Below, piece by piece: positions 1 through 10,722 of a stretch of 11,415 bases of DNA. The notes beneath the pieces are model-generated. The model saw only the letters and a program-made list of their open reading frames with translations, searched no databases and was not told the DNA's origin. Origin of the DNA: Candidatus Peregrinibacteria bacterium RIFOXYB2_FULL_32_7 (lineage in GTDB: Bacteria > Patescibacteriota > Gracilibacteria > UBA1369 > GWF2-33-10); NCBI GenBank assembly GCA_001787465.1, contig MFXJ01000024.1:1-11415 (forward strand), given 5' to 3'. How positions within the stretch are numbered: position 1 is the first letter of the stretch; the number at the start of each line of letters is the position of its first letter. A program made the position numbers and the translations under genes.

Positions 1-743
1 TCACTATTTGTATTTACCACTTTAAATGAAATTTCTTTTTTAGAAATTCTTTTTTCATCTAAAAGTACTCTATATACAGCCAAAGCCACACCATCCAAAG
101 ATTGTTCTGGAAATTGATTGACAGCTAATTCAACTATTGAAGCTTCATCGCCTCTTAATCTAGGCGCGATATCTTTACTCCATCTATCAAAAGATATATC
201 CATTACTGATATATACCTATCATTATCTCGTATAGCTTTTCGTATTTTAGGTGCCATACTAGTAATTATATCCATTACATTTGTTCTTGCAGCAACTAAT
301 TCTTCTTTCTCTCGCTGAAAATCTCTCACTTCAGCATCGCTTTGCAATACTTTATCAGATGTCCTTTTTAGTTCTTTTAATAATTGGCTATCATTTTGTT
401 TTTCCACCCCACTCCAATCTGCAATTAATTCTAAATATGTTACGGGTCTCCCTTCTCCAGAAGACATCCTTTTCTCAACTCTTAAAGGAACTCCGTGCCA
501 ATTCCCCAATCCTTCTACAAGAGTTTTTGCTTCTCCTTGGAATATATTTGGATTTATATTATTAATTCTTGCTGTATTTACAAAATAATCTGGATTAAAA
601 AATTCAGTTCCATCATAATCTCTATCTCTTTTTAAATCTAAAACAACTGCCGTTTTTTCTCCTTTGGTTGCACGTAACTTTAAACTAGAAACTGCCGCCT
701 CTACTGAAATACTTGTTTCTGGAGATCTCCATCTCTCTCTCTC
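1..743 (-). pseudogene. C-terminal continuation of the frameshifted gene, partial, unknown function
   Basis: This frame is open for about 247 codons from the TAG at 744-746 to the window edge, with no plausible start near its upstream end; the first ATG is near 466. It overlaps the end of the 701-1240 reading frame. Deleting one GA unit from the (GA)6 tract at 732-743 joins the two, giving a protein of more than 410 residues that continues beyond the window. The product is soluble-looking. It has a beta-rich start (KTAVVLDLKRDRDYDGTEFF), a strand-like PVTYLELIADW near 420-450, a charged helical stretch around 290-390 and an all-alpha-looking end. I do not recognise a family. The long open frame argues that it is or recently was translated. 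It is listed as broken only because the present repeat number disconnects it from its start. Confidence 0.6.
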
Positions 744-1240
744 CTAGACTCTTCTCTATCACCAAAGTGATCATTTAATGGATTATTATAAGCTCCTGAT
801 ACTTGTTGTGGATTTGCCAATATCCCTAAACTTGAAATTCTTCCTAATATTTCAGAATTTACCTTCATCCAATCAGCTGAATTTTTTATAGGTTGCCCGG
901 GAACAAGTGGTAAATCTTTTTCAGGAGCATAATCAATTGAGCTATAACCTAAATTTACAATTACCGTTTTTCCAGATTCACCTGCCTTTAATACAGCAGG
1001 TCTATAAGCTCTATCATATGTTGGGTCTGCTAATAAACTGGCCGTATTAAATACAATAAATAAATCGGCCCTAGTCCTCTCTCTTTGTGCTTGAGCTGTT
1101 TCACACCCTGGTATGAAGCCCCATGAAGTTATTACTTCATGACCTTGCCGTTGTAATAAATTAGCTAAATCTCTATATTGAGAGGAATGTGACACTTTTG
1201 CTGAATCTGCATCAGCTGCAATTATTGATATACGTCCCAT
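701..1240 (-). CDS. N-terminal part of a frameshifted gene, TIR-like alpha/beta domain (tentative)
   Basis: The 179-residue product reads as alternating beta strands and helices: strand at residues 3-9, helix 21-33, strand 35-40, strand 58-65 (ADLFIVF), strand 91-97 (KTVIVNL). The order ITSW..IPG.E, then ADLFIVF..SLLADPTYD, then VIVNLGY..IDY, then DLPLVPGQPI resembles bacterial TIR domains, which use NAD or act as effector-associated modules. No glutamate sits where TIR NADases usually carry the catalytic one (the stretch is YDRAYRPAV), so activity is doubtful. This assignment is by eye. From about residue 167 the frame is probably wrong: at a (GA)6 tract it runs to a nearby TAG, while the frame two bases away stays open to the window edge. 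The ATG at 1240 follows a promoter 22-35 bases upstream and has no Shine-Dalgarno sequence. Alternatives are a nucleoside deoxyribosyltransferase-like or another Rossmann-like fold. Confidence 0.7.
   Translation of the reverse strand: MGRISIIAADADSAKVSHSSQYRDLANLLQRQGHEVITSWGFIPGCETAQAQRERTRADLFIVFNTASLLADPTYDRAYRPAVLKAGESGKTVIVNLGYSSIDYAPEKDLPLVPGQPIKNSADWMKVNSEILGRISSLGILANPQQVSGAYNNPLNDHFGDREESRRERDGDLQKQVFQ
732..743 (-). repeat. (GA)6 dinucleotide tract at the frameshift point
   Basis: Six GA units on the minus strand lie exactly where the reading frame of the TIR-like gene breaks. With six units the frame ends 13 codons later at TAG. With five or eight units it would run into the long open frame that continues to position 1. 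This is the arrangement expected of a slippage-controlled on/off switch, but a sequencing indel would look the same. Confidence 0.8.
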
Positions 1241-1269
1241 ATATTATTTTTTTTAATGGCTAATAGCAC

Positions 1270-1296
1270 AGGATAACATCTCTCTCTCTTTGTCAA
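1270..1296 (-). promoter_or_regulatory. Promoter of the TIR-like gene with a (GA)5 repeat in its spacer
   Basis: On the minus strand a perfect -35 TTGACA (1291-1296) is followed by a 15-base spacer and an extended -10 TG-T-TATCCT (TG at 1277-1278, -10 at 1270-1275). The spacer is AA, then (GA)5 at 1279-1288, then TGT. Adding one GA unit gives 17 bases, the sigma-70 optimum, so repeat length would set promoter strength. Transcription would start near 1263, about 22 bases before the ATG at 1240. Confidence 0.65.
1279..1288 (-). repeat. (GA)5 dinucleotide tract in the promoter spacer
   Basis: Five GA units (TC on the plus strand) lie between the -35 and -10 boxes of the leftward gene. A further (GA/CT)4 run lies inside the same gene at 1077-1084, encoding RER at residues 53-55. 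Confidence 0.85.
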
Positions 1297-3423: not shown

Positions 3424-4330
3424 CTATCATTTTTTTTACATGTTCAGCCGCTTTCTCTAATCTTAATTGTTCATCTTTCGTTAAATTAATTTCAATAATT
3501 TCACTTATTCCATCTTTATTTAATTTCAAAGGCACGCCTAAATAAATATCATTAAATCCATACTGCCCACACAAATATCCTGAAGCTGGTAAAATTTTTC
3601 TTTGATTTCTAACTATTGCTTGCGTCATTTCAAAAATCGCTCCTGCTGGCGCAAAATAAGCACTTCCTGTTTTTAAATAAGAAATAATTTCAGCTCCAGC
3701 ATTAATAGTCCTCTGAACTAAATCATCAATATCTTTTGGTGGTAAAATTTCCACTAAAGGACGGCCAGCAACAAACGTATGATTAATAATTGGCACCATT
3801 GGCGCTCCATGCGTTCCCAAAACTATTGTTTGCACTTGGCTAGCTGAAACTTGAAGTTTCTCAGCAATAAAAGCACGGAAACGTTCTGTATCAAGCAGTC
3901 CAGCCATACCAATAACTTTTTTGGAATCAAATCCTGATAATTTATGAACTAAATAAGTCATAGCATCCAAAGGATTAGTCACGCATATCAAAATACTCTT
4001 AGGAGCATATTTCACAATATTAGGGACAATAGCTTTAACAACTTCAGCATTTTTATACAATAAATCATCTCTACTCATCCCCTCAACACGTGGAAATCCT
4101 GCGCTAATAATAATAATATCAGAATTTTCTATCATTTGATAATCTCCAGTACCGCAAATCATCACGTCTGACTGCAATGAAGGAGCGGCTTGCATCAAAT
4201 CAAGCGCCTTGCCTTTTGCCATATCAGCATCTTTATCAAGTAAAATTAACTCATGACACATCTTGCGTTCAACTAATCGATACGCAGTTGTCGCACCTAC
4301 GAAACCAGCTCCAATAATAGAAATTTTCAT
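3413..4330 (-). CDS. mdh: NAD-dependent malate dehydrogenase (LDH-like type)
   Basis: It interconverts malate and oxaloacetate with NAD(H) in the cytoplasm. The 305-residue product has the complete LDH/MDH layout: GAGFVG at residues 7-12, D32 ending the second strand (NAD over NADP), N119 in VTNPLD, D147 and R150 in LLDTERFR, and catalytic H174 in GTHGAP. The specificity loop reads GFPRVEGMSR, with arginine at position 81 (position 102 in LDH numbering), where lactate dehydrogenases carry glutamine, and R87 after it. This supports malate as substrate. An extended -10 lies about 38 bases upstream of the ATG. The 3' end overlaps sufD tail-to-tail by 11 bases, and no terminator is visible between the two. 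Confidence 0.93.
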   Translation of the reverse strand: MKISIIGAGFVGATTAYRLVERKMCHELILLDKDADMAKGKALDLMQAAPSLQSDVMICGTGDYQMIENSDIIIISAGFPRVEGMSRDDLLYKNAEVVKAIVPNIVKYAPKSILICVTNPLDAMTYLVHKLSGFDSKKVIGMAGLLDTERFRAFIAEKLQVSASQVQTIVLGTHGAPMVPIINHTFVAGRPLVEILPPKDIDDLVQRTINAGAEIISYLKTGSAYFAPAGAIFEMTQAIVRNQRKILPASGYLCGQYGFNDIYLGVPLKLNKDGISEIIEINLTKDEQLRLEKAAEHVKKMIAIL

Positions 4331-9729: not shown

Positions 9730-10722
9730 TCACGATCTTCCCTCCCAGTATCTTTTTAACATTACCGCTAAAGTATACTTAAATGCTTCTTGGCTCACTT
9801 TCTGCATTACACTTTCAGCTGAATCCAAAATTTCTTCCGCTATAGACCAACTAACTGCTTCTGAAGCCCAATCGGGCCACTGACCTTCAATAATCTCTCC
9901 AGTATAATTTTCTCCATCATCTATTTCTAAATAATATCGATACAACATTATTGCCAAAGTATATTTGAATGCTTCCTGACTCACCGGCAGTAAAACACTT
10001 TCAGAACTATCTAAAATTTCTTTTAAAAGGCACCAATTAACTGCTTCCACAGCCCAATCAGGCCACTGACCTTCAACACTTTCTCCTGTAAATTTTTCTC
10101 CATCATTTATTTCTAGATAGTATCGATACAACATCACAGCTAAAGTATATTTGAATGCTTCCTGACTCACCGGTTGTTGCGCACTTTCAAGCGAATCCAA
10201 AATATTATTTTCTACTGCCCAATTAACAGCATCTTCTGCCCAGTCTGGTATCGCCATTGAATTATTTTCATAAACATCCAGCCATGGTTGCGGATCTATA
10301 TATCCACTATATCCATTTTCATAATTTAAAGTATCTCCATATTGATCAATCCCGCGTAGTCCAAAATGAAGATGTGGACCAGTAGAAAAACCAGTATCAC
10401 CAGACGATAAAATGATTTCACCTTCTTTCACTATATTCCCCTCCTCAAAAAAAGGCTTTTCATTTCCATGACAATATAAAGTTTGGAAATGACAATCATC
10501 AATATGATGATCAATTCTAATATAATGACCATAGCCTTCGCTATCATAGCCAACATATCTTACTACCCCATCAGCTACTGCTTTGATTTCAGTTCCAAGC
10601 GGCGTTCCAAAATCAATACCATTATGTCCATCAAGGTCAAACTGCGCATAAACATCAGGATTTTCACCAAATCCCTGAGTGGCACGATAACTACCGTCAA
10701 ATGGATAACGAAAAGGGTACAT
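9730..10722 (-). CDS. M23 (LytM-type) metallopeptidase with three SLH-like repeats
   Basis: The 330-residue protein starts with a zinc endopeptidase of family M23, which cuts peptide cross-links in peptidoglycan. All active-site parts are present: H33 and D37 (GHNGIDFG), H85 (YCH) and H117/H119 (TGPHLHFG). Residues 159-330 hold three tandem units of 62, 62 and 48 residues with PDWA..AVNW at the front and VSQEAFKYTLAVMLYRYY in the middle. This is the pattern of S-layer homology (SLH) domains that bind wall polymers, though divergent. There is no signal peptide, and an in-frame TAA two codons before the ATG rules out a longer start, so export must be non-classical. It begins 3 bases after the NIF3-like gene stops. 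It is the only gene here ending in TGA. Confidence 0.9.
   Translation of the reverse strand: MYPFRYPFDGSYRATQGFGENPDVYAQFDLDGHNGIDFGTPLGTEIKAVADGVVRYVGYDSEGYGHYIRIDHHIDDCHFQTLYCHGNEKPFFEEGNIVKEGEIILSSGDTGFSTGPHLHFGLRGIDQYGDTLNYENGYSGYIDPQPWLDVYENNSMAIPDWAEDAVNWAVENNILDSLESAQQPVSQEAFKYTLAVMLYRYYLEINDGEKFTGESVEGQWPDWAVEAVNWCLLKEILDSSESVLLPVSQEAFKYTLAIMLYRYYLEIDDGENYTGEIIEGQWPDWASEAVSWSIAEEILDSAESVMQKVSQEAFKYTLAVMLKRYWEGRS
9760..10258 (-). repeat. Tandem 186-base repeats encoding the SLH-like units
   Basis: Matching blocks start at 9760, 9946 and 10132, exactly 186 bases (62 codons) apart. The units share long nucleotide identities, such as TTTCTCCATCAT and TATCGATACAA between units two and three and TTTGAATGCTTCCTGACTCA between units one and two (plus-strand order). 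The similarity at DNA level points to recent duplication or gene conversion. Confidence 0.85.

Follow-up and report, generated by a model that had tools for sequence, protein, structure and literature searches.

The promoter site and the gene behind it

The stretch of DNA that was analysed (the window, 11,415 nucleotides) carries on its minus strand, at 1296-1270, a sequence that had been read, without database searches, as TTGACA, 15 bases containing (GA)5 and TGT-TATCCT, and that reading is right base for base. The -35 element TTGACA lies at 1291..1296 (it is present in 20 of 20 related sites, although it is also the anchor of their alignment) and the -10 element TATCCT at 1270..1275, with TGT just before it. 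Between them, at 1276..1290, is a purine-rich 15-base spacer, AAGAGAGAGAGATGT, at the end of which stands the TGT of the extended -10. The (GA)5 inside this spacer occupies 1279-1288 and, together with the flanking A, makes an alternating run of 11 bases. The start region or leader that follows, GTGCTATTAGCCATTAAAA (1251..1269, minus strand), is common to the window site and a second site in the same genome (L180), and in part to one in the sister genus (L175); transcription is predicted to start within it. The ATG of the downstream ORF (1240-1238, minus strand) is 29 bases past the -10 element. The sequence GAGAGAGAGA has three matches in the window, at two places (two of them overlap), against 0.02 expected from shuffles.

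Ordinary extended -10 promoters of the primary sigma factor combine TTGACA and TGn-TATNNT with a spacer of 15-17 bases. The window site has TTGACA and TATNNT at a workable spacing (15 being the short end of it) upstream of an ORF, as a primary-sigma promoter should, and very probably is a promoter. To that extent the sequence-only reading stands, but its picture of a lone phase switch is not supported: a conserved motif is dispersed here in 20 copies, to which the site belongs. It is absent from a generic promoter scan because that scan tries spacers of 16-18 only. Elsewhere in the window, a divergent AAA_14/DUF4143 ATPase gene occupies 1388-2521 of the plus strand (PADLOC PDC-S01 match, 1.1e-52), and an M23 peptidase gene contains, at 9758-10227, a 186-base repeat in about 2.5 imperfect copies.

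The downstream ORF (701..1240, minus strand; 179 aa) is an orphan and the probable first part of a longer gene. Its frame, which begins at 1240, is closed by the stop codon at 703-701; a second frame on the same strand (3..743) stays open to the end of the contig once past its stop at 746-744. Immediately after that stop, where the two reading frames meet within the coding region, lies a second tract, (GA)6, at 732..743. The second frame continues in P0002, a protein of 365 aa encoded on a 24,283-base contig, with 155 of 155 residues identical over the shared part. Frames 701-1240 and 3-743 thus probably belong to a single long gene, broken in frame at or close to 732-743; the start called for P0002 is internal, as a frame break would have it, but a contig end could also account for this. 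Another protein, P0001, differs at one residue and ends in the same frame, so that a second assembly has the same frame state (the longest contig of P0001 is 2,332 bases, and it therefore does not come from the window's contig). This weighs against a slip in sequencing, and there is no sign in it of switching. The (GA)6 junction could mark a decayed gene, a contingency tract or a programmed frameshift. A full-length fused protein was not found among the best 7,997 candidates scored, nor were homologs of the window gene found besides near-identical copies, nor a relative of P0002 in one viral-contig scan. Assignment to a defence family was rejected, the two gene halves being without PADLOC match. 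The suggestion that the downstream gene is TIR-like fared no better: the ORF's match to TIR_2 (14.5 bits, E 0.05) is below the cut-off of 28, and its single-sequence structure model is poor (pLDDT 53), the first TIR-named chain ranking 49th of the 50 matches listed. Structural matches to so low-confidence a model were disregarded and a fold-based identity was rejected; such a model leaves a TIR fold compatible, but the TIR identity of the ORF is not confirmed.

A family of related sites and the genes that follow them

Profile searches yield 20 related sites: eight in the window's own genome (G000; 1.11 Mb in 116 contigs, 74% complete) and 12 in Candidatus Peregrinibacteria RIFOXYB2_FULL_33_20 (G001), which is of another genus and is the single other member of the taxonomic family among the genomes searched. 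The second of two profiles, R2, was built from all 20 matches, and the scores that it gives to its own sites are therefore not independent; the model-free evidence is a spacer-blind search of G000 for TTGACA-N13-21-TATNNT: this pattern has 49 matches, among which are five near-identical sites with a GA spacer, and the reversed control has 34. The 24-base motif, with three mismatches or fewer, is found at five sites in G000 and at none with the reversed pattern; with a gap allowed, it occurs in two of 59 genomes, G000 (five sites) and G001 (four). Clear matches to the first profile, R1 (built from 12 sites and run on 99 genomes), are likewise confined to G000 and G001, 22 other genomes having matches at E<=0.1, the best at 0.0046. 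With R2 no further site rises above background in G000 or G001 (in eight genomes, there is a gap between E values of 8e-6 and 0.014), and at E<=0.001 none is found in 336 other genomes of the class, so that two of 338 match in a set drawn from a larger group with stricter filters. The weakest three sites, L169, L170 and L172, obtain 26-28 bits from a model that includes them, which is little more than the 24.0 of the best unrelated pattern matches. Among the genomes searched, the motif is restricted to two genomes of one family. The sites may be copies of one another and so are not independent.

The consensus is AAAC-TTGACA-GAGAGAGAG(TA)ATGT-TAYnnT, then a start region of the ATAGATGTTTTA or GTGCTATTAGCC type, about 58 bases before an ATG. 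Its information content (computed against an assumed base composition of 34% A and 34% T) is 9.9 bits in the six positions of the -35 element, 13.1 in the first 11 positions of the spacer, 4.9 in its last four, 5.1 in the -10 element and 8.1 in the next 20 positions, with 7.9 bits in sum for 50 further positions upstream. When the last four positions are omitted, 227 of 244 spacer positions are purines and seven of the 20 spacers are wholly purine. With 13.1 bits against 9.9 in the -35 element, the GA stretch is the most informative part; it is conserved as a part of the promoter, and looks like a promoter element in its own right more than a bare slippable repeat. Of the 18 sites that have a readable ORF, 17 have the ATG 50-64 bases from the start of TTGACA (where several ATGs share one stop the one nearest +59 was chosen, which favours this result); at the remaining site the ATG is at +113, and the gene there is transporter-like (839 aa). 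One site, at L176, is cut by a contig end. At L170 (G001:C1), the ORF behind the site, at 1020-1300, is apparently split over two frames.

The genes behind these promoters are mostly small orphans. Sixteen of 17 products scanned with Pfam have no family above cut-off, the one that passes being transporter-like, whereas 15 of 20 neighbours (hand-picked by size from 31 listed ORFs) do have one and five do not. Comparison of 18 products by BLASTP at E 0.01 gives one related pair, one protein from each genome, at 49% identity; the others are unrelated. Ten proteins compared with PHROGs gave a best match at E 0.045. Conflict or accessory genes (Fic, RhuM, AbiEi, HepT, a DUF4143 ATPase, a TOTE primase) adjoin motif-bearing genes at L167, L168, L173 and L176, and an association of the motif genes with accessory islands is possible.

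Two spacer lengths and the question of slippage

The spacer is 15 bases long at eight sites, 17 at 12 and 16 at none, two weak sites (L172 and L169, for which a naive score preferred 14 and 20) having been assigned 17 by their flanking ATGT/leader anchor. Length goes with the GA repeat: an alternating GA run of at least 10 bases is present at all eight 15-base sites and at one of the 12 17-base sites (L174_1120), so that eight of nine long-run sites have 15 and 11 of 11 others 17 (p 7e-5 with the cut at 9 or 10, 0.0047 at 8 and 0.015 at 7, for cuts picked post hoc and sites that are not independent). It had been proposed that one more GA unit would bring the window's spacer to 17. Sister sites with 17 do exist, and one of them is exactly one GA longer (GAGAGAGAGAGTAATGT vs GAGAGAGAGTAATGT), the spacer of L174_1120 being the commonest 15-base spacer plus one GA; but a whole-unit difference that clean is found at only one of the 12.

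The flanks tell something of the history of these lengths. Spacers of different length can stand between similar flanks: L165 (17) and L168_2889 (15) are alike at all but two of 26 flank positions, and L175 (17) is next closest to the window site and L180 (both 15), which differ from it at 9-10 of 26. Nearest flank neighbours have equal spacer length in 14.1 of 20 cases (permutation p 0.031). The spacer has probably, on this comparison, changed by two bases more than once, yet its length tends to be inherited; unit-wise slippage of the GA run over evolution is plausible.

Whether slippage also toggles single cells is another matter. A slipped-strand phase-variable promoter, weak or OFF at 15 and ON at 17, is an unlikely account of the window site, even if several of its ingredients are at hand: the GA repeat sits between the -35 and -10 elements, sister sites with 17 include one that is a single unit longer, and the spacer lengths are two apart with none of 16 (two sites having been set to 17 by anchor). 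Moreover, every GA run of at least 11 bases found in the two genomes is in one of four promoters of this family or in the tract inside the window gene. Against this, the perfect GA runs measure just 10-13 bases (roughly 5-6.5 units); both genera have the 15-base form (at five and three sites), which is unlike a transient OFF state; eight of nine long GA runs share one spacer length, and lengths of 13 or 19 do not occur; spacer length follows flank similarity; and 11 of the 12 17-base sites are without a GA run above 8 bases. With runs so short and one length so dominant, rapid switching would be unlikely.

Comparison with Haemophilus influenzae points the same way. The hifA/hifB promoters, whose design the window site was said to share, do resemble it in having a dinucleotide repeat between -35 and -10, which is proposed there to alter the spacing by steps of two (available part of PMC2651432). 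The switching tract of hifA/hifB is (TA)9-11, however, whereas the window site has five units and the longest run in its family is 13 bases, or 6.5 units, which falls short of a tract length for high-frequency slippage as seen there (PMC2651432, same part). Also unlike hifA/hifB as described in that part, the window site is one of 20 dispersed copies, with a spacer whose conservation extends to sites where it is not a repeat. In Haemophilus itself, most five-unit tracts are invariant, 7 of 8 five-unit dinucleotide loci showing no length change between strains (PMC2651432, as far as available). Less likely again is a phase-variable regulon of these reduced-genome Peregrinibacteria, in which nine dispersed long-GA promoters would alternate between spacers of 15 and 17 bases, each of them independently turning its own fast-evolving orphan gene on and off, and the (GA)6 inside the window gene's coding sequence would be a second GA contingency locus. 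For a slippage-prone repeat in a candidate-phylum bacterium there is a parallel in Gracilibacterium BD1-5, with its hypervariable repeat gene (PMC6851277, in the text available); unlike those of the promoter family, its 9-base repeats are coding and confined to one gene, and the available text of PMC6851277 does not use the word promoter.

A probable promoter class and its possible readers

The reading that we favour, and hold to be probable, is that the window site belongs to a lineage-restricted class of dispersed promoters, a putative regulon, standing before mostly small orphan proteins. From the sequences we infer promoter function for the family, its reader, and slippage as the source of length change. 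The primary sigma factor would read the motif, through TTGACA and the extended -10, and a regulator or an effect of DNA shape would probably read the GA stretch. In the course of evolution, perfect GA runs would gain or lose whole units and so arrive at 15 or 17; with either length the -35 and -10 elements would stay within working range, so that length may tune promoter strength and would not act as a fast ON/OFF control. What sets the family apart from the ordinary extended -10 promoter is its strongly conserved purine spacer and start region, its confinement to two genomes and its place before mostly orphan genes. The explanations considered here are not all mutually exclusive, and a purine-rich element combined with slippage could be a real switch. 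The family is more interesting as a lineage-specific promoter class than as a single switch: with 20 members, mostly before genes without known families, it offers a handle on possibly co-regulated lineage-specific genes in uncultured organisms with reduced genomes, and it provides a natural 15/17 spacing series for testing the spacer's own role. No description of a promoter class of Peregrinibacteria was found among the open-access papers listed.

Recognition by a dedicated alternative sigma factor, with the GA stretch as part of the recognition sequence, would be compatible with a regulon and suits a motif that is strong and lineage-restricted. Candidates are not lacking, since proteins with Sigma70_r2 number four in G000 and five in G001, three and four of them besides RpoD. 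The -35 and -10 elements are of the primary-sigma type, however, and among the top four matches listed the extra sigma proteins of the two genomes are at best 35% identical, as compared with 79% for RpoD. That RpoD is the only close sigma pair favours the primary sigma factor, with the reservation that G000 is incomplete. None of the nine sigma genes in the two genomes (G000, again, being incomplete) has TTGACARRR within 110 bases upstream of its chosen start. An alternative sigma factor is accordingly improbable.

Mobile or duplicated cassettes of promoter plus gene, spread by copying, would make conservation a matter of recent descent and not of function. Near-identical promoter and leader sequences at the window site and at L180, which has no ORF behind it, are what one might expect of copying, and several neighbours are conflict or accessory genes. 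On the other hand, the 50 positions upstream of the promoters have little in common, the 18 products are unrelated save for the one pair, and the motif occurs in two genera; such cassettes are no likelier than a dedicated sigma factor. The L180 site itself (about 4216-4262; G000:C2:16215-16261) is without the usual ORF, and the next gene is convergent.

A scan of 84,980 species genomes gave 75 stretches, of which four, from RIFOXYB2_FULL_33_20, also have the remainder of the motif and score 31.6-52.8 bits with R2 (a profile built partly from these four). A widespread bacterial motif is rejected, the other 71 of the 75 reaching 24.0 bits at most, a score largely attainable from the searched bases alone; so are a phage-borne motif (12 viral stretches, at most 22.8 bits with R2) and a lone chance promoter, given 20 related sites and the empty reversed control of the 24-base motif. 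One of the viral stretches, L131, has the core minus one GA unit, with 13 bases of spacer; it is, however, located within a phage coding frame and is without the leader.
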